Made by a program: the position numbers and the translations under genes. Shown here piece after piece: positions 23,837-36,247 of a DNA stretch of 64,000 bases. The notes beneath the pieces are model-generated. The model saw only the letters and a list, made by a program, of their open reading frames with translations, did not search any database and was not told the DNA's origin. The stretch covers positions 1,302,001-1,366,000 of the forward strand of contig NZ_CP041235.1 in the NCBI RefSeq assembly GCF_014905115.1, read 5' to 3'. The DNA comes from Sulfurimonas sediminis (GTDB lineage: Bacteria; Campylobacterota; Campylobacteria; Campylobacterales; Sulfurimonadaceae). Position 1 is the first letter of the stretch; each line of letters begins with the position of its first letter.

Positions 23837-23851
23837 CGATAATAATTATCA
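23837..23851. promoter_or_regulatory. Fur-box-like operator upstream of porin
   Basis: CGATAATAATTATCA matches the 7-1-7 Fur consensus TGATAATNATTATCA at 14 of 15 positions and is a perfect 6-1-6 palindrome (GATAAT A ATTATC). It lies about 30 bases before a TATAAT box (23881-23886) and about 90 bases before the porin ATG, where a repressor would be expected to bind. The minus-strand gene starting at 23784 is also close enough to be affected. Confidence 0.7.
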
Positions 23852-23886: not shown

Positions 23887-23943
23887 TTCTCCATTCAAAA
23901 AGGTTTTGATATTCAATATCACAATCAACAAAAAGGATTAAAA

Positions 23944-25149
23944 ATGAAAAAGTCAAAAATCTCATTCGCCTTAGCGAGTATGTTATTAGTAAGCAGTGCC
24001 TCATTCGGGGATGATAAAACAGATATTCTTAAACTTCAGCAGGAAGTAAAAGACCTCAAAGAAATGACACAGATTCTTGTTGATGAAACAAGTGATTTGA
24101 AAACCGGTTTTAATTATACCAAAGTTGATGAAAAAAAGCGATATACAGGTTTGGGTAGTGCTGCATCTAAAGTTTACTACTCAAAATCACCGTTAAGTAT
24201 CGGTGGATATGGCGAAATGTATTATTCAAGCAGCCAAAAAGGTGGTTCTGAAACACAGATAAAAAGATTCATTACATATTTTGGATATAAATTTTCTGAC
24301 AATATCATCTTAAACTCGGAAATTGAATACGAAGGTGGCGGTGTAAAAGCTACAAGTACAGGTGCTACCGGTGATACAGTGGCCGTTGAATTTATGTACC
24401 TTGACTTCATAGGAAACAAAAACTTCAATGCACGTCTTGGTAATTTTCTTGTTCCTATGGGTTTAATGAATGAGCAGCATGAACCGACACTTTTTACAAC
24501 GATCCAGCGTCCAAACACAGCGAAATATGTTATTCCGACAACATGGAACAGTTCAGGCGCAATGCTTTACGGTGAAATTGCAGAGGGTATAGAGTATAAG
24601 GCTTCCATTGTCACAGCACTGCAGATTACAGATACCGGAGACAAATGGGTAAGAAACGGCCGTGGCAGCGGGCGTTTGGTAAAAAATCCGGATGCAGCAG
24701 GACAGGTAAGAGTTGATTACACAGGAACAAGTGGTTTGCTTATCGGTGCTTCATCATATTTTTCCAAAGATCTGTTTATGTTTGATGTTCACCTTGATTA
24801 TAAAATAGGCAATGCCAGAGTTTATGGTACCTATGCACAAAATAAAAGAGTAGATACCAATGCAAGTCAACAGGTGACAGCCAACTATGGCGGTTTCTTA
24901 AATGCAAGTTACAATATTGCTTCTTTGATAGGCACTGACAAAAAAACACCTCTTTTTGTGCAGTATGAACGATACAACCCTCAGTCAGAGGTAAGTAACG
25001 GGAGTACGGCAGGTGATGCTATAACAGATGTGACGCTTGGAATCAACTTTTTTCCACATGAGCAGGTAGTCCTTAAAGCTGAGTATGTTATCTCAGATAA
25101 TGTAGCTACAGGGAACATCACCGGCATATCTTTAGGTTTTGTTTTTTAA
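23944..25149 (+). CDS. Outer-membrane porin with N-terminal coiled coil (OprO/P-like)
   Basis: A 401-residue protein with a clear signal peptide (residues 1-22, ...SSASFGDD), a short coiled coil (about 24-50), then a 16-18-strand-type barrel rich in glycine and aromatic residues, ending in the canonical aromatic terminus ...GISLGFVF. The ATG has AAGGA 6 bases upstream. A Fur-box-like operator precedes it, and it opens a run of redox genes, so it may supply metal ions or let a small electron carrier through the outer membrane; the substrate is not visible in the sequence. Confidence 0.75.
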   Translation: MKKSKISFALASMLLVSSASFGDDKTDILKLQQEVKDLKEMTQILVDETSDLKTGFNYTKVDEKKRYTGLGSAASKVYYSKSPLSIGGYGEMYYSSSQKGGSETQIKRFITYFGYKFSDNIILNSEIEYEGGGVKATSTGATGDTVAVEFMYLDFIGNKNFNARLGNFLVPMGLMNEQHEPTLFTTIQRPNTAKYVIPTTWNSSGAMLYGEIAEGIEYKASIVTALQITDTGDKWVRNGRGSGRLVKNPDAAGQVRVDYTGTSGLLIGASSYFSKDLFMFDVHLDYKIGNARVYGTYAQNKRVDTNASQQVTANYGGFLNASYNIASLIGTDKKTPLFVQYERYNPQSEVSNGSTAGDAITDVTLGINFFPHEQVVLKAEYVISDNVATGNITGISLGFVF

Positions 25150-25178
25150 AAAACATTCAGACATATTTTCTCCTTTAT

Positions 25179-25210
25179 GGGGTTTTGCGGCAATTTTACT
25201 GCAAAACCCC
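25179..25210 (+). terminator. Terminator after porin
   Basis: A 10-bp perfect stem (GGGGTTTTGC / GCAAAACCCC) with a 12-base loop, followed by an A/T-rich tract, 30 bases after the porin stop. It would separate porin from the FMN-binding gene unless read through. Confidence 0.8.
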
Positions 25211-25218
25211 AATTATTT

Positions 25219-25257: not shown

Positions 25258-25779
25258 ATGAAATATATTTCACTATTTATACTGTTATTAACACAACAAT
25301 TATCAGCACAACTCCTTGTGTCTCCCATTGATGCAATGAAAGAGAACTTTGATCGCAACGCAACAATTACCAAAAAAAATATTCTTCTGACACATGACAA
25401 ATTTAAAACAATACAAAAAAATGCAGGCGTAAAACTTACTACAAAAATTTACAGAGTTTATATAGCCAAAAAAAATGGAAAAATACTGGGATATGGTGTA
25501 CTTGTCAACAGAAAGGTCCGTTCCAAGAATGCGGTCACACTCTATTTCTTCAAAGACTCTGTTTTACAGGGAATAGAAGTCATTGCCTTTAATGAAACGC
25601 TGGAATATCTTCCGCCAAAAAGATGGACACAGCAGTTTGAAAACAGAAAAACCGACAAGGTATTAAAACTTAATCGGGAGATAACAAATATCTCAGGGGC
25701 AACAATGAGCGCAAAAAGTCTTACAGACGGTTCGCGTATAGCATTTGCCATATACAACATGCTGTATAAGGACAAATAA
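25258..25779 (+). CDS. Secreted FMN-binding domain protein, covalent flavin carrier
   Basis: A 173-residue protein with a signal peptide (1-17, ...QQLSAQ) and an FMN-binding domain. The flavinylation motif ISGATMSA is complete; Thr149 in SGAT should be joined to FMN by ApbE, which is encoded 2 kb downstream on the other strand. Such domains (as in NqrC, RnfG, PplA) pass electrons outside the cytoplasm. It is followed, with no gap, by two membrane proteins and a multiheme cytochrome, pointing to a periplasmic electron-transfer chain. Confidence 0.85.
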   Translation: MKYISLFILLLTQQLSAQLLVSPIDAMKENFDRNATITKKNILLTHDKFKTIQKNAGVKLTTKIYRVYIAKKNGKILGYGVLVNRKVRSKNAVTLYFFKDSVLQGIEVIAFNETLEYLPPKRWTQQFENRKTDKVLKLNREITNISGATMSAKSLTDGSRIAFAIYNMLYKDK

Positions 25780-26262
25780 TTGCGTTTTACTCTTATAAAA
25801 AATCTAAAGAAAGACTCTACTATCAAGCCTATGCTCAACGGGTTGCTTATCTTCATGCTTTTCTATTTTGCTGCTGAAGTATTTGTGGATTATAGCAACT
25901 TTGGTCTTTCCTACGAACAAGTAAAATTTACACTTTTTGGAGATGAAGAAAACTTTTTAGAACCCATTTCTCAAGCTTCGTTTTTAGAATATATTCATAC
26001 TAAAATATTTTTTATGATGATGATACTCCTCACCCTCAGTGCTGTGTTTATTCGCTTGAGTTCCAGGGAGAGCTTAAAATTTTTCTGTCTGAACAGTGTT
26101 ATGATAAGTGCCCTTACTATGCTTATAACACTTCCTCTTGCATATTATACAAGTCCTTTTTTTACATATATCTATTTATTGACATATTATGTATGGCATT
26201 TGTGTGCATTTTACATGGTTTTGCATTCTTTATGGAGTCTTAATTTTGCAAAAAGCATATAA
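25780..26262 (+). CDS. Four-helix membrane protein with transmembrane histidines
   Basis: A 160-residue protein with four hydrophobic helices (about 20-36, 70-90, 102-122, 128-150). Histidines sit at helix edges (YIHTKIF; VWHLCAFYMVLH), spaced so that they could bind b-type heme. The gene begins with TTG directly at the end of the FMN-binding gene. I do not recognise the family; by context it is the likely quinol- or heme-linked membrane part that exchanges electrons with the flavoprotein. Confidence 0.55.
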   Translation: MRFTLIKNLKKDSTIKPMLNGLLIFMLFYFAAEVFVDYSNFGLSYEQVKFTLFGDEENFLEPISQASFLEYIHTKIFFMMMILLTLSAVFIRLSSRESLKFFCLNSVMISALTMLITLPLAYYTSPFFTYIYLLTYYVWHLCAFYMVLHSLWSLNFAKSI

Positions 26263-26692
26263 CTTTGCCATATTTTATTTTATTCTCTTTTCACTGCTGC
26301 TGCTTCTGAGCAGTAGTGTTCTTTTTGCATCCAAAATCGGCTTTACAACCGAAGGTGTCCTAACATACTATCTTGGAAATGAGACACTTTTCATTGCACC
26401 TAAAACACCAGGCGGTATACTTAAAATTGTTCTGCCGCATATTTTTGCTTTTGGACTTTTTGTCATGGTTACAGTACACTTTTTACTCTTTACACACAAA
26501 AAAAGAACCAAAGAACTGCAACTGCTTACATCTGCTCTGTTTATTCTCTCATTTTTGGAAATCTTCACTCCATTTGCCATTATAAACGGTTTTGAGTCGC
26601 TTGCATTCTTAAAAATATTTTCATTTTTTTTCTTTGAAGTTGTCATACTCTATACTTTGTTTATACTCTTTAAAAGTATTTTATATGATTAA
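26246..26692 (+). CDS. Second four-helix membrane protein with transmembrane histidines
   Basis: A 148-residue protein starting at a TTG that has GGAG 8 bases upstream and lies inside the end of the previous gene; an earlier start would overlap much further. It has four helices, and the pattern H-x12-H in LPHIFAFGLFVMVTVHFLLF could hold heme b. It looks like a divergent partner of the preceding gene. No named family recognised. Confidence 0.55.
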   Translation: MQKAYNFAIFYFILFSLLLLLSSSVLFASKIGFTTEGVLTYYLGNETLFIAPKTPGGILKIVLPHIFAFGLFVMVTVHFLLFTHKKRTKELQLLTSALFILSFLEIFTPFAIINGFESLAFLKIFSFFFFEVVILYTLFILFKSILYD

Positions 26693-26710: not shown

Positions 26711-27808
26711 ATGAAAAAAATTATATTAATACTTCTGGTCTTTCTCGGATACACTTCTTTGTTTTGTAATGACAATACGGTCTGTAAAAAATGCCATCCT
26801 TTGATTTATAAAGAGTATTACAACTCCATACATAGAAAATCATCCCTGGCCAATGATAAAATATATAAAGCAGTTTTTGAAAAAGAACATGCAAAAAAAC
26901 AAAAATGCAACAGCTGCCATGCCCCAAGCGCAAAAAACCCCCAAGAGGAAAAAGAAGCACCCATATCGTGTATCTACTGCCATACCATTAAAAATATCGT
27001 AAAAGATGACACAGCAAATAAAAATATTTTAACAGGAAAGAAAAAAGACTTTTTCAGCGCGCAAAAAGACAAAAAAAATGAATCTAAAGTAAAATATGAA
27101 ACAACAACTTCTTTCTTTGGTCTTATAAAACGCTCTAAAAATTCCCCTTATCATCAAATAGAGTACAACAATGAAAACTACTATAACGGCAATGTCTGCA
27201 TGGGATGCCATTCACATGTAAACAACGCCCATAATTTTGACATTATCATGCTTGATGCATATATTGACCAAAAAGACAAAAACACCTGTATATCCTGTCA
27301 TATGCCACAGGTAACAGGCAGTAAAACAACGCTGAGTGACAGTAAAACCCATGCCTATCATGGTATAGCCGGTTTGCACAGATTCACTGAAACACTTGGT
27401 AAATATATAGATTTTCAAGTACAAAAACATGAAAAAGGCTTTCAGGTCACCCTAAAAAATCTGACAAACCATGCTCTTTTCGGACAGGCATACAGAGAAG
27501 GGATTTTAAATGTTACAGTCATACGAGGCAAAGAAAAACTAGTCCAGAAACCCTATATATTTACACGTATTTTCGGTAAGGGCAATGAAGAAAGTATGCC
27601 TTTTGAAGCAACAAATATTTTAAAAGACACTCTTATTTATGCAAAAAAAAATATTCTCTATACAACAAAACTGCAAAAAGGAGATAAAGTCGTACTGACC
27701 CTCGGTTTCCGTCTCATCTCAAAAAAAGCAGCAAAAGAGTTAGATCTTCAAAATGATAAAAAACTCACAAAAATAAAGGTTTTAAAAACGGAAACATTCA
27801 GTTTTTAA
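26711..27808 (+). CDS. Periplasmic five-heme cytochrome c
   Basis: A 365-residue protein with a signal peptide and five CXXCH heme motifs (CKKCH 25-29, CNSCH 66-70, CIYCH 87-91, CMGCH 163-167, CISCH 193-197), then a C-terminal beta-rich domain of about 150 residues without hemes. Motif order resembles the cytochrome c-554/hydroxylamine-oxidoreductase-like family. It closes the plus-strand run after the FMN carrier and membrane proteins and probably takes electrons from them. The ATG is preferred over a TTG six codons upstream; neither has a strong Shine-Dalgarno. Confidence 0.85.
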   Translation: MKKIILILLVFLGYTSLFCNDNTVCKKCHPLIYKEYYNSIHRKSSLANDKIYKAVFEKEHAKKQKCNSCHAPSAKNPQEEKEAPISCIYCHTIKNIVKDDTANKNILTGKKKDFFSAQKDKKNESKVKYETTTSFFGLIKRSKNSPYHQIEYNNENYYNGNVCMGCHSHVNNAHNFDIIMLDAYIDQKDKNTCISCHMPQVTGSKTTLSDSKTHAYHGIAGLHRFTETLGKYIDFQVQKHEKGFQVTLKNLTNHALFGQAYREGILNVTVIRGKEKLVQKPYIFTRIFGKGNEESMPFEATNILKDTLIYAKKNILYTTKLQKGDKVVLTLGFRLISKKAAKELDLQNDKKLTKIKVLKTETFSF

Positions 27809-28740
27809 CCCGGATTATGCAATAGATCAACATAATCATCTATGTTTTTACTTATAATGAGCTTTTTATCTGCCTGTAAAATAATATAGGCAAGATTTTT
27901 TGCATTTAAAAACGCATATGATTTTTTTACCGGCATAACACTTGCAGCCGTTGCATATGCATCGAGTGTCGCCGAAGGAAGTTTTGAAACAAGTGTTATG
28001 GAGATGAATTTTTGCTCTGATTCTTTTGTTTTTGGATTAATGAGATGATTATACTTTTTTCTTTGTACATAACGGTTATAGTTGCCGCTTGTACTTACAC
28101 CACTGTCACGCATGATAAATGTAACCAAAGGATGTGTCACATCCAGAGGGTTGTTAACGGCAACCTTGCAGCTGCCTATACATCGTATGTCTCCGCTCAG
28201 AGCAACCACTGCCTTCTTCACCTTGTTTTGCAGTAAAAATTTACTGACTTTGTCTGTCGCAAACCCCTTTCCCATACCGCCAAGATCTATTTTGACACCA
28301 TTTTCCAAAAAAGCTTCATGCCTGTCAAATCTGAGTGCCTCAATGGAGGTAGAACTCTTTTGCAGCTCACTTTTTGCAGCAATACGTTCATTGGCACCAA
28401 ATCTGTACAAATCTTTTGTAATAGTTCCTACAGCGATATTAAAATATCCCTCTGTCTCTTTATAGTATTTTAAAGAGAGTTTCAAGGCTTCGTAGGAGTA
28501 TTGATTCAAAAATGCGTGATGGCTGTTGTTGAGTTTAAATATTGGCGTGTTCTTTTTATAGGTAGAAAGAGAATTGTCAACCCTTTTTATAATCTCAAAA
28601 GAGGGTTTGAGGAGCTTTTTGTCTTCTTTGTCAACTGATATTGATACAAAAGTGCCCATAAGTACTTTTGTACGTTGTATCATCTGTACATCGGCATTAC
28701 ATGTAATGAACAACGATGCAAAAAGAAAAAGTCTGTACAT
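27805..28740 (-). CDS. apbE: FAD:protein FMN transferase ApbE
   Basis: A 311-residue protein with a signal peptide (1-16) and ApbE motifs: TKVLMGTFVSISV near the start, D-L-G-G-M-G-K-G-F-A-T-D-K and the SGDIRCIGSC and SGNYNRYVQRKKYNHLINPKT segments that bind FAD and Mg. It transfers FMN from FAD to threonine in S/TGAT motifs; the protein at 25.3-25.8 kb has that motif. Its end overlaps the cytochrome gene tail-to-tail by 4 bases, and it follows ribBA by 3 bases, so flavin supply and flavin attachment are co-transcribed. Confidence 0.93.
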   Translation of the reverse strand: MYRLFLFASLFITCNADVQMIQRTKVLMGTFVSISVDKEDKKLLKPSFEIIKRVDNSLSTYKKNTPIFKLNNSHHAFLNQYSYEALKLSLKYYKETEGYFNIAVGTITKDLYRFGANERIAAKSELQKSSTSIEALRFDRHEAFLENGVKIDLGGMGKGFATDKVSKFLLQNKVKKAVVALSGDIRCIGSCKVAVNNPLDVTHPLVTFIMRDSGVSTSGNYNRYVQRKKYNHLINPKTKESEQKFISITLVSKLPSATLDAYATAASVMPVKKSYAFLNAKNLAYIILQADKKLIISKNIDDYVDLLHNPG

Positions 28741-28743
28741 GAA

Positions 28744-29772
28744 TTAGATGTCAATAATCTCATTGACTTCAAGTCCGAACCCGCCAAGTCCGACAAAGTC
28801 AGTCTTCTTCATAGACGTAATAAGATTCATTTTTGAAATACCAAATGATTTAATAATCTGTGCACCAATACCGAACTCTTTTATAGCTGCATTATCCTGA
28901 TGGTGTGTTTTGTTTATAAAAACCAATAAACCGCTGTTTTGTTTAAGATACTCTATGGAGCTGATAAGGTTATTGTATTTTTCTTGCTGCAAGAACAGTT
29001 CACAATCCGGAATAACATTGTGAACCCGTACATTGGCAACTTCTCCGGCATTGTAAAAAAGTATGGCAGTGTGTTGTATACCATCATGGTCTTCAAAGGT
29101 ATGTCGCTGTACTTTTACTCCGAAAAACTCTATCTCCTGAACATCTGTCTCTTTGACAAGTCTCTCGTTTGCAAGTCGGTATTCAACAATATCAGAAATA
29201 AATACCGTATGCAAATCATGCTTTTTCGCAAAAATATCTAAATCATCCCGGCGTGCCATTTCACCGTCATCTTTAATAATTTCACAAATAACACCCGCTT
29301 CGCTTAACCCTGCCAAGCGACATAAATCAACCGACCCCTCCGTATGACCTGTTCTTACAAGTGTACCGCCCTCTTTTGCAATGAGAGGAAAAATATGTCC
29401 CGGTTTTACCAACTCATCCGGTTTGGAAATAGGATTTGCCAGTATTTTTATAGTATCATCTCTCTCTTTTGCCGAAATACCTGTCAAAGCATTTTTGGCA
29501 TCAACAGAGATTGTAAAGGCAGTTTCATACGAAGAAGTATTTGAACTCACCATAGGATTCAAATCAAGCCTGTCGGCAATAGACTTGGAAAGAGCAACAC
29601 AGATAAGCCCCCGTGCGTGCATTGCCATAAAGTTTACATGTGCCGGTGTAGAAAAGGCAGCCGCATAGACCAGATCGCCCTCATTTTCTCTGTCCTCATC
29701 ATCGACCATAATAACCATCTTGCCTTTTTTGATATCTTCTATCGCCTGTAAAACTCTCTCTGTCGGTTTCAT
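28744..29772 (-). CDS. ribBA: Dihydroxybutanone-phosphate synthase with degenerate GTP cyclohydrolase II domain (RibBA-like)
   Basis: A 342-residue fusion. The N-terminal RibB half is complete (MVIMVDDEDRENEGD, the acidic active-site loop; TGHTEGSVDLCRLAGL). The C-terminal RibA-like half has lost the zinc-binding cysteines: where GTP cyclohydrolase II has E-C-L-T-G-D...R-C-D-C-G it reads VRVHNVIPDCELFLQQEKYN. So it should make dihydroxybutanone phosphate but not open GTP, as reported for related Helicobacter RibBA. It supplies riboflavin synthesis and leads the operon with apbE. Confidence 0.9.
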   Translation of the reverse strand: MKPTERVLQAIEDIKKGKMVIMVDDEDRENEGDLVYAAAFSTPAHVNFMAMHARGLICVALSKSIADRLDLNPMVSSNTSSYETAFTISVDAKNALTGISAKERDDTIKILANPISKPDELVKPGHIFPLIAKEGGTLVRTGHTEGSVDLCRLAGLSEAGVICEIIKDDGEMARRDDLDIFAKKHDLHTVFISDIVEYRLANERLVKETDVQEIEFFGVKVQRHTFEDHDGIQHTAILFYNAGEVANVRVHNVIPDCELFLQQEKYNNLISSIEYLKQNSGLLVFINKTHHQDNAAIKEFGIGAQIIKSFGISKMNLITSMKKTDFVGLGGFGLEVNEIIDI

Positions 29773-30448: not shown

Positions 30449-30700
30449 ATGCAAATATCTTTAAATATTCAAGATGATGTTTATCAAAAGCTCAAAAATG
30501 CTGGTATAGATATGCAATCAAAGATTAATGAATACCTTCTGTATCTAGTAGATAGAAAAGATGATTATTTGAACTCTAAACAGTTTCAAGAGGACAGAGC
30601 TTATTTTCACAAAATACTAGAAGATATAGAAAGTGGAAAGACAAAACCTCTTTCACATACAGAAGTATGGAATACAATAGAACAGCATACTAGCAACTAA
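30449..30700 (+). CDS. Antitoxin of RelE/ParE-type pair
   Basis: An 83-residue protein with a strong AGGAGG Shine-Dalgarno. The N terminus (MQISLNIQDDVYQKLKNAG) has the strand-helix form of a ribbon-helix-helix DNA-binding antitoxin; the remaining acidic tail should wrap the toxin. It ends two bases before the toxin ATG, in the standard antitoxin-first order. Confidence 0.7.
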   Translation: MQISLNIQDDVYQKLKNAGIDMQSKINEYLLYLVDRKDDYLNSKQFQEDRAYFHKILEDIESGKTKPLSHTEVWNTIEQHTSN

Positions 30701-30702
30701 GC

Positions 30703-30984
30703 ATGAAAATTATCTATGAGCCAAGGTTTGTAAATTCTTTTAATAACATTTGGGACTATATCGCACAAGATAGCAAAAATAGAGCAAATAAATTTAAAAA
30801 AGAGATAAAAAAATTAATTGAAGATATACACCTTATGCCTTACAAATGTAGAAAATCAATTTACTTTGATAATGATAATATCCGAGACTCGATTTATAAA
30901 GGATATACAGTCGTATATAAAATTGATGACAAGAAATCAATCATTACAGTTTTAGGTATTAAAAAGTATAAGGCAGAATTGTAA
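30703..30984 (+). CDS. RelE/ParE-superfamily toxin
   Basis: A 93-residue protein with the ParE/RelE pattern: Y-E-P-R-F-V-N-S-F-N-N-I-W-D-Y-I-A, two helices, P-Y-K-C-R and the strand pair S-I-Y-K-G-Y-T-V-V-Y-K-I-D...I-T-V-L-G-I. It should act on mRNA at the ribosome or on gyrase; sequence alone cannot say which. Two bases after its antitoxin gene. Toxin-antitoxin pairs of this type often stabilise islands. Confidence 0.8.
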   Translation: MKIIYEPRFVNSFNNIWDYIAQDSKNRANKFKKEIKKLIEDIHLMPYKCRKSIYFDNDNIRDSIYKGYTVVYKIDDKKSIITVLGIKKYKAEL

Positions 30985-31063
30985 GTCACTTTAATTTTTG
31001 GGGTATATACAGGGGTATATTTTTATTTTGTATTCAAAAAATATAATAAAATAGGGATACAGT

Positions 31064-31083
31064 GAATCCTTCTACCCCATCCA
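31064..31083. repeat. Attachment-like repeat, second copy
   Basis: GAATCCTTCTACCCCATCCA differs from the 3' end of tRNA-Gln by one base. From here the sequence continues into DNA that also follows the third copy at 39630-39646, so this is a junction of integrated or duplicated DNA. Confidence 0.75.
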
Positions 31084-31295
31084 CAATCGCAAATTTTAAA
31101 CAAACAGACTTTATTATGAACGAAACAACTGATTTAACAACTTTAACTATAAGAATGGGTGTTTTTGTAGTTATTGCAGGAATATTCTATTTTATTTTAA
31201 AATCTAAAAAGAAATAAAATCAGTTAAAGAGAATTATAATTTCTCTTTAACCATGTTGTCCAGATAATTAAACAACTCCTGTGATGCTTTTTCTG
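31071..31295. repeat. Segmental duplication, copy A, left part
   Basis: Nearly identical to 39632-39855: it contains the 33-codon ORF (31118-31219), the convergent terminator hairpin and the last codons of the MCP gene. A handful of single-base differences separate the copies. It is interrupted at 31296 by an insertion sequence and resumes at 32560. Confidence 0.9.
31118..31219 (+). CDS. 33-codon membrane peptide, duplicated copy
   Basis: Same as the ORF at 39680-39781 except for isoleucine in place of valine at residue 12. One hydrophobic helix (about 15-28) followed by a lysine tail. It lies in duplicated DNA; whether it is expressed is unknown. Confidence 0.4.
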
Positions 31296-32550
31296 CACCC
31301 CAATCCTAAAAAAACAGGAATTTAAAAGAAGAACAATAATTGCTTAAACTCTAAAAAACTAAAGTGATTACATATGGCAACAAAAACAAGAGAAAAATTA
31401 GCGAAAAAGCGTTCTATAAGAGGGTATGCAGATCAAGCCCAATCAAATCAACTTTTAAAATTGTTTTCAGAGGTGACAGACTATCGGAAACCTCAAGGTA
31501 AAAGACACCGACTAGAACATATTTTATATCTTTCAGTATTGGCTGGATTGATGGGAGCAACTGACTATAAGCAAATATCTATTTGGATAGAGAAGCATAT
31601 TCAAAAAGAACAAGTTAAAAGATTATTAGGTGTAGAGTTTATATTAACACCAAAGAAAAGTTTGGTTTCTGATGTGTTAGCGAAAGTTGATAGCCAAGAA
31701 GTTGAAGTTGTTTTTAGGAAATGGATAAGAACCTATGTCGATACAAGAGGAAAGCACCTGAGCGTAGATGGCAAGGTTATGAATGGCAGCAAATACAAAG
31801 ATAAGAGATCAATAGAAGTAGTTGGTGCTGTTTTATCTGAGATAGGGGTAATAATTGCTCATCAACAAATAGCAGAGAAGTCGAATGAAATACCTGCCCT
31901 TCAGGCTATGATAGGGGAATTGGGAGATGAATTTATCTTTACTTTTGATGCAATGAATACCCAAAAAAACTCTTGATGCTATCGAAAATAGTGGTTCAAA
32001 ATATATTGCCAAGGTAAAAGATAATCAAAAAACCTTACTTGATAAAATAGATGAAATTTCAAGAGATATAAAACCGACAAATATTTACAAGGCTAAACCT
32101 GTCCAACAATCTAATGAATGGATTAATAGGAAGGTGTTTGTATATCAACCAACTACTTTTTATCATAATGGCATAACTCATATTCGCTCAATAATAAAAG
32201 TTATAAAAAAAGTAGAGTCAACAAATCATAAAACTGGCGAGATTACTAATAGCACTAGAATTCAATTCTGTATTGCAAATTTTCATGAAAGTGCAGAATT
32301 CTTTCACAATAAAATTTTACACCATTGGAAAGTGGAAACCATGCATCAATACAAAGATAATTCACTTTTAGAAGATGCTCATAATTGTCATTTAAATCCA
32401 TTTTTAATGACTATTCTTAGAAGTATGATTTTGAATATTTTACACCTTAATGGTGCAAAATCTATACAAGAACAACTCATCAACAATAGATGGGATTTGG
32501 ATGACTCTATCGCTCAAATATTAAAATTTAGTTTTTAGAGGATTGTGGTG
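31296..32550 (+). mobile_element. ISAs1-family insertion sequence (copy a), target duplication CTTTTTCTG
   Basis: A 1255-bp element with imperfect terminal repeats CACCCCAATCCT / AGGATTGTGGTG (CAC-x-C-CAATCC type). The 9-bp sequence CTTTTTCTG lies on both sides (31287-31295 and 32551-32559), and removing the element plus one repeat restores the duplicated MCP tail. The transposase gene inside is frameshifted. Confidence 0.85.
31374..32538 (+). pseudogene. ISAs1-family transposase, frameshifted
   Basis: The first 198 codons give the N-terminal and central part of an ISAs1/H-repeat transposase (LKLFSEVTDYRKPQGKRHRL, LSVDGKVMNGSKY, FTFDAMNTQK). At a run of seven A residues near 31965 the frame breaks and stops at TGA. 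Removing one A restores TQKTLDAIENSGSKYIAKVKDNQK and an open frame to 32538, with HHWKVETMHQYKD near the end. A one-base insertion in the A run is the simplest cause. Ribosomal slippage is possible, but it would need to be +1, which is not typical of this family. Confidence 0.85.
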
Positions 32551-32900: not shown

Positions 32901-33830
32901 TTAAATATCTTGTTTGAGCGGCAGTAGTTTACAAATAATCTTTTCTGTATATTTTCTTTTTAAAATATCAATATATGATGGTTCAATTGAATACAAATAA
33001 GGTAAGTAGCCTTTTAAATAATTTAAATCTGCAGAGCTTATTGTTTGTTTAATATATTGGTAAATTAAACTTTTTATCTCTCTCTTTTTATTTTTTCCAA
33101 CACTAATATTTCCATCAGTTGTTAAGATTAATCCCGTTACTATCTGTCGTCTTTTTTTAGAAGTAAATATATTTTTATCTTCATTAACTACAAGTTTAAT
33201 ATAAAAAGATTTTAAATATTCTTTTAAAAGAGGTAAGATTTTTTCTAATTGATTTGTTTGATTTGTTGAAAAGTACATATCATCTGCATATCTTGTATAA
33301 ATAATATTTAAATTGGTGCATATTTCGGATAAATAGCTATCTAATTCATAAAGTAATATATTACTAATAATTGGAGAAGAAGGAGCACCAATTGATAACT
33401 GGTTACTTTTACAAACAAACATATTAATCAAAGTAATGTCGTTTTTGGAAAGAGACAGTTCATATAATTCAATGTTTTTCACTAAAAATCCTCTTATATA
33501 TTCACCTTTAATTGAAGGAAAAAAGCTTTTAAAGTCTACTCTTAGTAAAAACCTTTTATTTACATGATTAAGAGCCATACCTTTAATATTTTTACCATCT
33601 TGATATGAATATACTGATTCATGTATTGGAAATTTTGAGAATACTTTAGTAATTAAATATCGTTGATATTCTTTTAATTCTTTTGACGGTTGAGAAATAA
33701 TCCTATTTCCACCAGTTCTTTTTGGGATATTATATGTTTTATATCTTCTTGAAGCTGAATATGCAAATTGATATATTTCTAAAAAAGGTTTTTCAAACTT
33801 TTCACTAAGTTGTTTTTGAAAAGTATTCAT
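32901..33830 (-). CDS. Retron-type reverse transcriptase
   Basis: A 309-residue reverse transcriptase of retron length. Catalytic motifs are complete: first aspartate in LRVDFKSFFPSI (Asp99), SIGAPSSPIISN, and TRYADD (181-184). It also has the retron hallmark VTG (231-233) before the thumb, and at 81-90 N-I-K-G-M-A-L-N-H, which corresponds to the retron NAxxH motif with Met for Asn. It would copy part of a structured RNA into branched msDNA. Its ATG follows the effector stop immediately. The RT is intact, while the effector gene upstream is broken by an insertion. Confidence 0.9.
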   Translation of the reverse strand: MNTFQKQLSEKFEKPFLEIYQFAYSASRRYKTYNIPKRTGGNRIISQPSKELKEYQRYLITKVFSKFPIHESVYSYQDGKNIKGMALNHVNKRFLLRVDFKSFFPSIKGEYIRGFLVKNIELYELSLSKNDITLINMFVCKSNQLSIGAPSSPIISNILLYELDSYLSEICTNLNIIYTRYADDMYFSTNQTNQLEKILPLLKEYLKSFYIKLVVNEDKNIFTSKKRRQIVTGLILTTDGNISVGKNKKREIKSLIYQYIKQTISSADLNYLKGYLPYLYSIEPSYIDILKRKYTEKIICKLLPLKQDI

Positions 33831-34636
33831 TTAAATATAACTCCTTGAGTCCTCTTGTCCGTATTCCAATTGTAATTTAATTAAGGTTGCCTTTTGTCTT
33901 TCTGTTAAATTTGTGTCAACCAATGTATAGTCTGAATCAATTGGACGAAAGTAAATTTGCTCTTCTTCTTTAAATCTTTCTATAACCTTAGCCACTACTA
34001 ATAAAGAAATTAAAACAGTGAAATTTTTCTTTTCATATTTTGAATATTCTAAGTTATCTAAAAGCTCTCTAGTCATGTCTTCTATCTGTCTATATGATAG
34101 TATAGGCATTAATCGAATAATTTCATATGTAACTACTAATGGGAAAAATTCACTCTCCATAAATTTCAATGTATGTTGATGTGAAGTATAGTCTTCTTCA
34201 AGGTTATGTATTAGTTCCGCAAATTTATGATTATTATCTGTTGATTTAAAATCTATTTGAAGTGCTCTCATCTCTCTATCATTATGAATAACATCAATAA
34301 TATGATTTAAATATGATTTTGCACCAGAGTAATTATAATCATTTACAACATAAATTTTTTCTTTTGTTTCATCTATTGCTGTAAAATATCCAAGTTCTGT
34401 ATAAGAACCAACACTTTCTGGAAAAATAATTAATGAATAGGCTTGTTTAATAGCATTTAGTTCTAATTCTACTAATGCTGTTCTTTTAGCTTTCACTCCT
34501 TTTTTTAAGGCACTAAAATTCTTTAAATCATCATATATTGCTTCAATAGTTACAAATTTAAACTTACTTGATATACCACTGTCAATATATTCTATAAACT
34601 GTTCTCGGATAGTTTGGGGAAATTTGGAAATACTAG
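33831..34636 (-). pseudogene. Retron effector, nucleoside-deoxyribosyltransferase-like, 3' part (split by IS1182)
   Basis: Residues 40-306 of a reconstructed 306-residue protein. The segment SLIIFPESVGSYTELGYF has the PES-GS-x2-ELG pattern of nucleoside deoxyribosyltransferase-like enzymes, including retron-linked effectors of the St85/Ec86 kind. As it stands, an open frame runs from inside the insertion sequence (ATG at 34682, adding 16 foreign residues), so a 283-residue chimera lacking the FGGTS nucleotide-site loop could be made. The gene stops directly at the ATG of the reverse transcriptase. Effector family assignment is by motif and context. Confidence 0.75.
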
Positions 34637-36247
34637 GAGTCTGTCGGATACCCATCCAAAAATACTCCCTATAATCTCTCATATTTTTAAAAAACCATTT
34701 TTAGAGCGATAATGTAGAAAATATTCTCTAAAATCCTTCATATATTGCTCGATATATGCCATCCCTGTCTCCTGTTATCCCATTATCGTATGCAATCTCT
34801 TCAGATTGTATGCCATGCATACCAAACGCCACTCACCTTGTGCCTTTTGAAGCCCTCTGAGCATAAATTGCCTAAATCCAATTACCTGTTTGATGATACC
34901 GAAGATGGGTTCTATGACACATTTGCGTTGGGCATAAATAGCTTTACCCTCTTTGGTCTGAAGACGGTGTTTCATTTTTTCTACTTCAGTAGGATTATCA
35001 GGCAAAGGGTCTGCCTCTTTGAATCTCTCTTCAAGTGGCTGATTGTGTTGCTCTTTTCCAAATGAGATATAGGGTGTCATTTTGCTTTTTACACATAGCT
35101 TGATATTCTCTTCGCTGAAATAGCCTGCATCCGCATTGAATGCAGCGGAAGGTTTGAGTTTTGGATGTACCTCATACCATTGCAGTGTAGGCTTAACCTC
35201 CTGTTTGTCATTGGTGTTTTGTGTAACATGGGTATGGAGTATCAGACGGGAATCATGCTCTGCTGAGGCTTGGGCATTGTAGCACTGCTCAAACCCTCCG
35301 CCTGATGTTTTCATAATACGAGACTCTTCATCGGTCAGGTTGACCTGGTCTTTATCCAATACTTCTTCGACAGGCTCTTTTGGCACTTTGCCTTTTGTCT
35401 TCTTGTCTGTGAGCTTCTCTTTCTCCTTGCGTCTCTTCATCTTCTCATCATAGAGTGCTTTCTCTTTTGCATAGCGCTCTTTGGCGCGTTGCTCTATTTT
35501 TGCTTTGGCTTCCTTAATGACTTCAAGACGCTCTTCTCTTCGTTCCAGCTCCTCAGGGATATTCACTCCTTCATCGCTTTTACTGTTGTCTGCCTCTTGT
35601 GCTTTTTCAAGCAAGGCCTGCACTTCTGCTTCGAGTTGGGATTGCAGTTTTTTTATATGTCCGTAGCTCAGTGCCTTATGCTTGGAAGCGTTGGCTTTGA
35701 CTTTGGTACCGTCAAGACTTACTTTGCCTACTTTAAGTACGCCCGACTTCTGTGCTACCTCAAGTATCTGCACAAAGAGATCGGATATCTGGGAAAGAAA
35801 ACGTTTGCGGAAGTTGGCAATGGTATCGTGATCGGGATGAGTATTGACAGCAATATATCTAAATGGTACAGAATCGTAGGTAGCCTGTTCTATCTTTCTG
35901 CTTGAAAAGACTCCTGTTGCACCCCAAGAGTATTTCCTCGCTTCGCTCACCGCACATATCCGTAAAAGAGAAGCGAAAGCATTGCTTTGGGATCATAGGC
36001 ATCTTTGCCACCTTCTTTGTAGTGTTTGTAGATATCATTGAGATCGAGTGTTTCGACTATCTCTACAATGAAGCGTGCCAAATGCCTCTTTGGAAGCCAC
36101 TCTTCTATACTCGGAGGCATCAGGAATGGCTGATTTCGGTTAGCTGCTATGAAGGGTTTCATATCGTCAAAGCCTTATTAGAATATTCTCTTATTTATAT
36201 TTATTATACCTGATTATTGGTTTTGAGTGGGTTAATCCGACAGGCTC
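34637..36247 (-). mobile_element. IS1182-family insertion sequence, target duplication CTAG
   Basis: A 1611-bp element with ends GAGTCTGTCGGAT / (reverse) GAGCCTGTCGGAT and the 4-bp palindromic duplication CTAG on both sides (34633-34636, 36248-36251). It has split the retron effector gene. Its transposase gene is on the minus strand and is itself interrupted by a 35-base insertion. Confidence 0.9.
34775..36162 (-). pseudogene. IS1182-family transposase interrupted by 35-base insertion
   Basis: The N-terminal 69 codons (MKPFIAANRNQPFLMPPSIE... to LSLLFYGY) and the remainder (ATGVFSSRKIEQATYDS... to AYNLKRLHTIMG) are in different frames. Between them (35921-35955) lie 35 extra bases that carry a stop. 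Without them the reading is continuous and gives a typical IS1182 transposase with NTHPDHDTIANFR, the DGTKVKANASKH aspartate region and a C-terminal YAQRKCVIEPIFG. The insert has GCAC at both edges, but its origin is unknown. The element is probably immobile unless helped in trans. Confidence 0.85.

Follow-up and report, generated by a model that had tools for sequence, protein, structure and literature searches.

An unassigned pair of paralogous four-histidine membrane proteins in a flavin gene set of Campylobacterales, usually with a Fur-type operator

In characterised flavinylation systems, as described in PMC8238504, electrons from a donor reach a flavinylated acceptor by way of a relay across the membrane. 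The locus considered here lies in a 64,000-nucleotide stretch of DNA (the window) and encodes a putative flavinylated protein, and the only integral membrane candidates for a relay within its gene set are two small proteins, HP1 and HP2, encoded by adjoining genes. What these two proteins are, and where electrons passing through them would go, is the question that the locus raises. The answer developed below draws on the composition of the gene set in relatives, on the paralogy and conserved residues of the pair, and on a DNA site in front of the first gene.

Composition and distribution of the gene set

The first gene of the usual unit (positions 23944-25149 of the window, plus strand) encodes a porin-like outer-membrane protein, assigned from the character of its sequence and giving no Pfam or PDB match by sequence. 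The next gene on the same strand (25258-25779) encodes an FMN-binding protein whose match to PF04205 scores 23.6 bits against a cut-off of 22, which matches RnfG in the PDB (9eri_G, E 1.1e-6), and which is judged to be secreted from its signal-peptide-like N-terminus only. The flavinylation motif SGAT is encoded at 25693-25704, and [ST]GAT occurs in 81 of 82 distinct homologues, a count from which rows shorter than 150 aa and identical rows are left out. Between the porin and FMN-protein genes (25178-25211) there is a strong terminator-like hairpin, and perhaps more porin message than downstream message is made. HP1 (25780-26262) and HP2 (26246-26692) follow on the plus strand, and in the window they are succeeded by a gene for a pentaheme c-type cytochrome with five CXXCH motifs (26711-27808, plus strand). 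Convergent with this series, on the minus strand, is the gene for ApbE, an FAD:protein FMN transferase (27805-28740; PF02424, E 4.5e-55), and directly upstream of apbE on its strand is a RibBA-like riboflavin synthesis gene (28744-29772); at a related locus (L166), the gene in the RibBA position matches both PF00926 and PF00925. No iron-binding protein is encoded in the unit.

Comparison with relatives gives a usual order of porin, FMN protein, HP1 and HP2, with ApbE convergent and often accompanied by RibBA. HP1 is present in 105 of the 108 stretches examined, and HP2 adjoins it in 99 of these 105 loci. Among the six exceptions, L106 and L110 contain a piece of HP2 detected by tblastn, L160 has a weak HP2 match, and the stretches of L096, L115 and L164 end in or shortly after HP1. 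ApbE is found in 88 of the 105 HP1 loci, and 59 of 90 ApbE rows, the window's among them, have RibBA immediately upstream in the same orientation; the 105 loci and the 90 rows count some contigs twice (e.g. L052/L128 and L065/L107). The FMN protein is present in 98 of the 105 loci, which together with the near-universal [ST]GAT motif bears out the co-occurrence with SGAT flavoproteins that an earlier note on this DNA had proposed as a check. Among the other seven, L085 and L163 retain a piece of it where the contig breaks off, and L071 and L123 begin inside HP1; the exceptions are L065 and L107 (two records of one contig) and L096, where HP1 stands without a match to FMN protein or porin though upstream DNA is present. 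The first two represent what seems to be a reduced variant of the unit, made up of HP1, HP2 and ApbE, and L096 appears to be a similar case with regard to HP1.

The same note had described the pair as flanked by a flavin carrier and a multiheme cytochrome. This arrangement holds in the window, but the cytochrome is an optional insert rather than an integral partner: a pentaheme cytochrome, with five CXXCH motifs in each case, follows HP2 in 14 of the 105 loci (the window and 13 others) and went undetected in the remaining 91, a number that includes stretches stopping a short way past HP2. L129 has a weak partial match to the pentaheme family further off on the other strand. Two loci, L155 (6616-11120) and L156, carry further genes between or before those for the porin and the FMN protein; in L155, for which alone the families can be given, they encode an imelysin (M75), a fatty-acid-hydroxylase-like protein, a beta-barrel protein and a MauG/CCP-type diheme protein.

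The host genome is a single contig of 2.32 Mb, and most of its near relatives in the named collection belong to Sulfurimonas. HP1 is patchily distributed in the order, with 32 of 298 genomes and 11 of 81 genera having it. A profile search across the phylum found it in 38 of 397 genomes, and all of the matches listed fall inside the order, the number of the 397 that lie outside the order not being stated. A tblastn search of HP1 against plasmids found none.

The membrane pair and its conserved histidines

Both genes have TTG start codons, that of HP1 immediately 3′ of the stop codon of the FMN-binding gene and that of HP2 within a 17-base overlap with HP1. Alignments of homologues begin in the same start region for each protein, in agreement with the earlier description of two overlapping genes for 160 and 148 residues. 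AF2 single-chain models (mean pLDDT 89.6 for HP1 and 88.4 for HP2) likewise agree with the prediction of four helices in each protein. By the positive-inside rule, both termini and the loop between helices 2 and 3 would be cytoplasmic, and loops 1-2 and 3-4 periplasmic, in HP1 and HP2 alike. Loop 1-2 is acidic in HP1 (mean D+E 4.45 and K+R 0.52 over 83 sequences) and of mixed charge in HP2 (D+E 2.83 and K+R 2.38 over 80 sequences).

A profile comparison of HP1 with HP2 gave a probability of 93 and an E-value of 3e-7, with an hhalign score of 47.8 against 17.2 for the reversed profile and at most 18.3 for 20 column-shuffled profiles; as judged by these profiles, HP1 and HP2 are paralogues. Neither has a usable match in Pfam, in NCBIfam (window proteins only) or among PDB sequences, so that the earlier failure to place them in a known family persists under profile search. 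When 21 HP1 and 22 HP2 members were compared with Pfam, no match to Nqr/Rnf, NapH, MsrQ, PepSY, DsbD or DUF4405 was obtained at E ≤1. Structural searches with Foldseek and VIA-align returned MAPEG enzymes, FAT domains, rhodopsins and the RDH-complex chain 8q4h_C (Z 6.6), and no fold is claimed for HP1 or HP2 because these matches fall in the range for unrelated helical bundles.

The earlier reading of the pair as a heme protein had been made to depend on conservation of its histidines, and four histidines, two per subunit, prove to be among the most conserved residues. In HP1, H73 of helix 2 (codon 25996-25998) is present in all 83 distinct sequences, the window's included, and H140 (26197-26199) in 80 of 83, with N in its place in L073, L119 and L162. 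In HP2, H65 (26438-26440) and H78 (26477-26479), both in helix 2, are each present in 80 of 80 distinct sequences, again including the window's. The invariant residues of HP1 are H73, G54 and F3 only, and those of HP2 are H65 and H78 only. Each distinct sequence entered these counts once, provided that it had at least 140 aa (HP1) or 95 aa (HP2); alignment A1 omits the frameshifted L051, the near copy L060 and the partial L071, and alignment A2 omits L054 and L070. Other histidines drift, HP1 H149 being found in 9 of 83 sequences and HP2 H84 in 3 of 80. Of the two motifs proposed from the window alone, H-x8-H in HP1 (H140 and H149) consequently falls away, its second histidine being rarely kept, and H-x12-H in HP2 is retained throughout.

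In cytochrome b-type proteins, H-x12-H spacing on one helix is that of a helix serving two stacked hemes. Four conserved histidines are the right number for two bis-His hemes, which the pair may putatively hold; which histidines would share a heme is a guess, the pairing suggested being H65 with H73 and H78 with H140. That HP1 and HP2 make up a heterodimeric b-type cytochrome is a well-supported hypothesis, in which both the heme and the complex are predicted.

The closest relative (L051, 5694-6095, and L002, of genome G011), whose HP2 is 95% identical, has an HP1 gene that is frameshifted at a poly-T run before H140. The genome is nonetheless a single contig, and the frameshift is either a real mutation or a sequencing error.

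Fur-type sites upstream of the porin gene

The Fur box can be written in a 7-1-7 form, which is the one applied in this analysis. Upstream of the porin gene in the window, a Fur-type box at 23837-23851 (CGATAATAATTATCA) agrees at 13 of 14 positions with TGATAATNATTATCA and overlaps a sigma-70-like -35 hexamer, and a second, weaker site (TGATATTCAATATCA, 12/14) lies 70 nt downstream at 23907-23921. The classical Fur box is given as GATAATGATAATCATTATC in PMC3788343. Boxes scoring at least 12/14 are present in 60 of 66 distinct porin-upstream regions, as against a mean of 1.46 and a maximum of 5 in shuffles, the 66 regions coming from related species and not being independent trials. Identical regions are left out of this count, as are porin rows in which the profile match sets in beyond position 60 and genes that begin within less than 250 nt of the end of a stretch. 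Below the threshold are L054 (11), L156 (10), L115, L118 and L155 (9 each) and L091 (8). In 51 of the 60 promoters the box is accompanied, at a distance of 45-79 nt, by a second site scoring 11/14 or more (shuffles: mean 2.54, maximum 8).

The box is kept also at loci without the pentaheme cytochrome. No Fur-type box was found in the 350 nt before HP1 in L065/L107 or L096 (best 9/14), and in L155 and L156 it is absent both before the porin and before the first gene of the longer unit. The porin-upstream sites form a conserved Fur-type operator, at which Fur would presumably bind and exert iron-dependent repression. Such an operator, which the earlier note had missed, stands in front of most of the gene sets and points to iron assimilation.

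The specificity of the pattern was gauged in whole genomes. In the host genome only three places, the window's included, have at most one mismatch to the box, and a reversed control pattern has none; of the other two, one is inside a coding frame and one is intergenic, between what we take to be bioD-like and EAL-like genes, and not tied to iron genes. Sites with two mismatches mean little by themselves, because the box pattern has 50 such places in this genome and the control 29. A scan of 60 genomes of the window's genus found the exact box 17 times, in 14 of the genomes, and the control pattern in 2 genomes. Six of the 17 precede this porin (L239, L241, L244, L246, L248 and L250, the last on a contig that ends in the porin). 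Three are inside long open frames, presumably nosZ (L256, L257 and L262), and are probably a coding coincidence. The other eight are found with an outer-membrane protein and an ABC transporter, a MauG-type peroxidase and a Fur-family gene, another Fur-family gene, and unknowns. For L258 (2-2979), the genes are those of a beta-barrel protein, a MauG-type diheme peroxidase and a short Fur-family protein, with an exact Fur-type box after them, in what is possibly a second iron-linked redox cluster.

Elsewhere in the host genome (L236, 2700-6356; host positions approximately 507700-511350), a porin-like gene precedes a feoB gene, whose product was identified by PF02421, and a feoA-like gene, which we take to be feoA from its sequence. 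As a control, this porin-like gene was followed through relatives, with 23 of 30 loci tested and a full 1,500-base flank assumed for minus-strand loci. A box of at least 12/14 was found in 12 of the 23 loci tested, which include the host's, with 0.24 expected. Both feoA and feoB are visible in 13 of the 23, and eight of these 13 have the box; the five that fall below 12/14 are L267 (the host, where the box scores 11/14 only), L277, L278, L280 and L283. The box is found also at four loci without feoAB in view (L271, L282, L285 and L286).

Known systems, a proposed role and its rivals

Several known systems invite comparison. Proteins of the DUF4405 family (PF14358) and FezC are, like the pair proposed here, membrane b-type cytochromes with conserved histidines, some of them associated with ApbE, and one DUF4405 member has been shown to bind heme b (PMC11334425). 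The histidines H54-x13-H68 are invariant in 14 DUF4405-matching proteins and resemble H65-x12-H78 of HP2, whereas HP1 has no such pair. The heme sites of FezC are modelled as built by homodimerisation (PMC11334425), and the DUF4405 protein is described as a single six-helix protein, in contrast to the two paralogous four-helix subunits of the present unit. None of 21 HP1 and 22 HP2 members matches PF14358, nor is there a match to it in the host genome. The hhalign score of HP2 with DUF4405 is weak at 19.3 (22.7 with the untrimmed alignment), exceeding the 12.0 of the reversed profile and the shuffled maximum of 16.5 but far below the HP1-HP2 score, so that common descent is no more than possible. 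Profile comparisons of HP1 with DUF4405, and of either protein with cytochrome b561, gave scores within their shuffled maxima; b561 (PF01292) gave a weak match in 2 of 22 HP2 members (best E 0.0017), and among 20 HP2 proteins scanned singly the one match, in L067, reached 18.1 bits against a cut-off of 30.1.

PepSY-like and MsrQ-like proteins offer an analogy as membrane heme relays to an extracytosolic flavinylated protein, a role that HP1 and HP2 may share, and PepSY clusters have been linked to iron reduction and Fur (PMC8238504). They differ in size and subunit make-up from HP1 and HP2, which have no Pfam match to them, and in their partners, which frequently include DUF2271 and sometimes a TonB receptor, as against a porin and an FMN_bind protein here. 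With Nqr/Rnf there is the likeness of the FMN protein to RnfG; unlike those complexes, however, none of the six unit genes scanned matches another Nqr/Rnf subunit, and the membrane part consists of HP1 and HP2. By functional analogy, HP1 and HP2 may work like the flavin-associated cytochromes of the DUF4405, FezC, PepSY and MsrQ types, of which they are not detectably members. Campylobacter and Helicobacter belong to the same phylum as the organism of the window. RibBA, flavin and low iron are tied there to extracellular ferric reduction, with riboflavin production connected to it in H. pylori and in C. jejuni, the mechanism in the latter being given as unknown (PMC6041382); free riboflavin is discussed in that source, whereas a covalent FMN protein is predicted here.

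The best explanation of the locus, to which about an even chance is assigned, is a Fur-repressed HP1-HP2 diheme cytochrome b that conveys electrons from quinol through a flavinylated periplasmic protein to ferric iron for uptake. In this view the cytoplasmic membrane would house HP1 and HP2 as a heterodimer with two b-type hemes, each bis-His ligated, the ligands being H73 and H140 from HP1 together with H65 and H78 from HP2. The complex would take electrons from the quinol pool, which is the presumed donor because the unit encodes no cytosolic reductase, and would hand them on to the periplasmic product of the gene before HP1, to which ApbE would covalently attach FMN, with flavin supplied by the neighbouring RibBA. 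That protein would reduce ferric iron, or iron complexes admitted by the co-transcribed porin, and FeoB would import the resulting Fe2+; in iron-replete cells Fur would keep the gene set repressed. Given the Fur-type operator, the porin in front and the riboflavin synthesis gene behind, the final acceptor is most likely ferric iron. Counting against this explanation are the replacement of H140 in 3 of 83 sequences, the loss of both box and flavoprotein in L065/L107 and L096, the absence of the box in L155 and L156, the scores below 12 in L054, L091, L115 and L118, its weakness at the host feoAB, the five of 13 feoAB-linked loci that score below 12, the lack of a tie to iron genes at the other two near-exact places in the host genome, the want of a fold match beyond generic helical bundles, and the absence of an iron-binding protein from the unit. 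Somewhat short of an even chance is the broader reading, in which HP1 and HP2, built from two diverged copies of one four-helix protein, would found a new family of heterodimeric diheme membrane cytochromes, set in a self-contained, Fur-controlled, flavin-based ferric reductase together with the porin, FMN protein, ApbE and RibBA.

The same components could instead spare iron in respiration: under low iron, the cytochrome b and flavoprotein would stand in for iron-rich carriers and deliver electrons to a periplasmic acceptor, for instance the pentaheme cytochrome or a MauG-type peroxidase, and not to ferric iron. Exchange of flavins and cytochromes is documented in respiratory systems (PMC8238504), and the pentaheme gene after HP2 in 14 of 105 loci and the MauG/CCP-type diheme protein in the L155 unit would suit such a shunt. 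It is nevertheless unlikely, since no pentaheme partner was seen in 91 of 105 loci (some of which break off shortly after HP2), HP1 and HP2 would themselves cost heme, and the unit is led by a porin under an operator type that it has in common with porin-feoAB. If HP1 and HP2 were a permease for iron or another metal, with the four histidines lining a path for Fe2+ rather than binding heme, the Fur-type operator and the conserved histidines in predicted membrane helices would fit equally well. This is distinctly improbable: the flavoprotein would then have no membrane electron donor in the unit, FeoB is already encoded in the genome, and H-x12-H on one HP2 helix matches the spacing of diheme proteins (compare H-x13-H in DUF4405).

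The host genome has two Fur-family genes, and the boxes of related regulators differ by few bases, so that the operator might belong to PerR or another Fur-family protein and the unit answer to peroxide or some other signal. The letters that distinguish Fur-type boxes, G at position 2 (50 of 60) and C at position 14 (52 of 60), and the presence of the box before porin-feoAB in 8 of 13 loci make this very unlikely. Least probable of all is the reading closest to that of the earlier note, a cytochrome b that would act as quinol dehydrogenase solely for the multiheme cytochrome next to it and have no bearing on iron supply. The pentaheme gene of the window and 13 other loci speaks for it; against it stand the 91 loci where that gene was not found (some ending soon after HP2) and the operator that is kept where the cytochrome is absent.

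HP1 and HP2 are paralogous membrane proteins of no assigned family, with four conserved histidines between them, and their flavin gene set usually has a Fur-type operator. Most likely they make up a flavin-associated cytochrome of a new, heterodimeric kind that works in iron assimilation. In the literature on flavinylation in Campylobacterota, on Sulfurimonas FMN-binding proteins and Fur, and on flavinylated ferric reductases, the module is not described in titles or abstracts, a search whose scope left bioRxiv and most subscription journals outside. Some genomes and apbE clusters have no membrane electron module that could be recognised, and new modules have come to light through a search of just such cases (PMC8238504, PMC11334425). 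If the proposal is true, HP1 and HP2 would add one more membrane module to flavinylation, of unusual heterodimeric build, and would be a piece of machinery so far missing from the picture of flavin-linked iron reduction in some of the Campylobacterales. The loose notion of a "heme b module" has in this way become a testable claim, namely that the pair is iron-repressed, contains heme, reduces flavin and is needed for iron-limited growth.

Beyond the RibBA-like gene, the window contains two elements of other kinds. A two-gene pair that we take to resemble a toxin-antitoxin module is followed by pieces of a presumably transposase-like gene (30449-32538). Further on (32901-34682), a small reverse transcriptase of 309 aa is encoded beside a 283-aa protein, a pair that, by the sequence features of the reverse transcriptase, we assume to resemble a retron-type defence unit.
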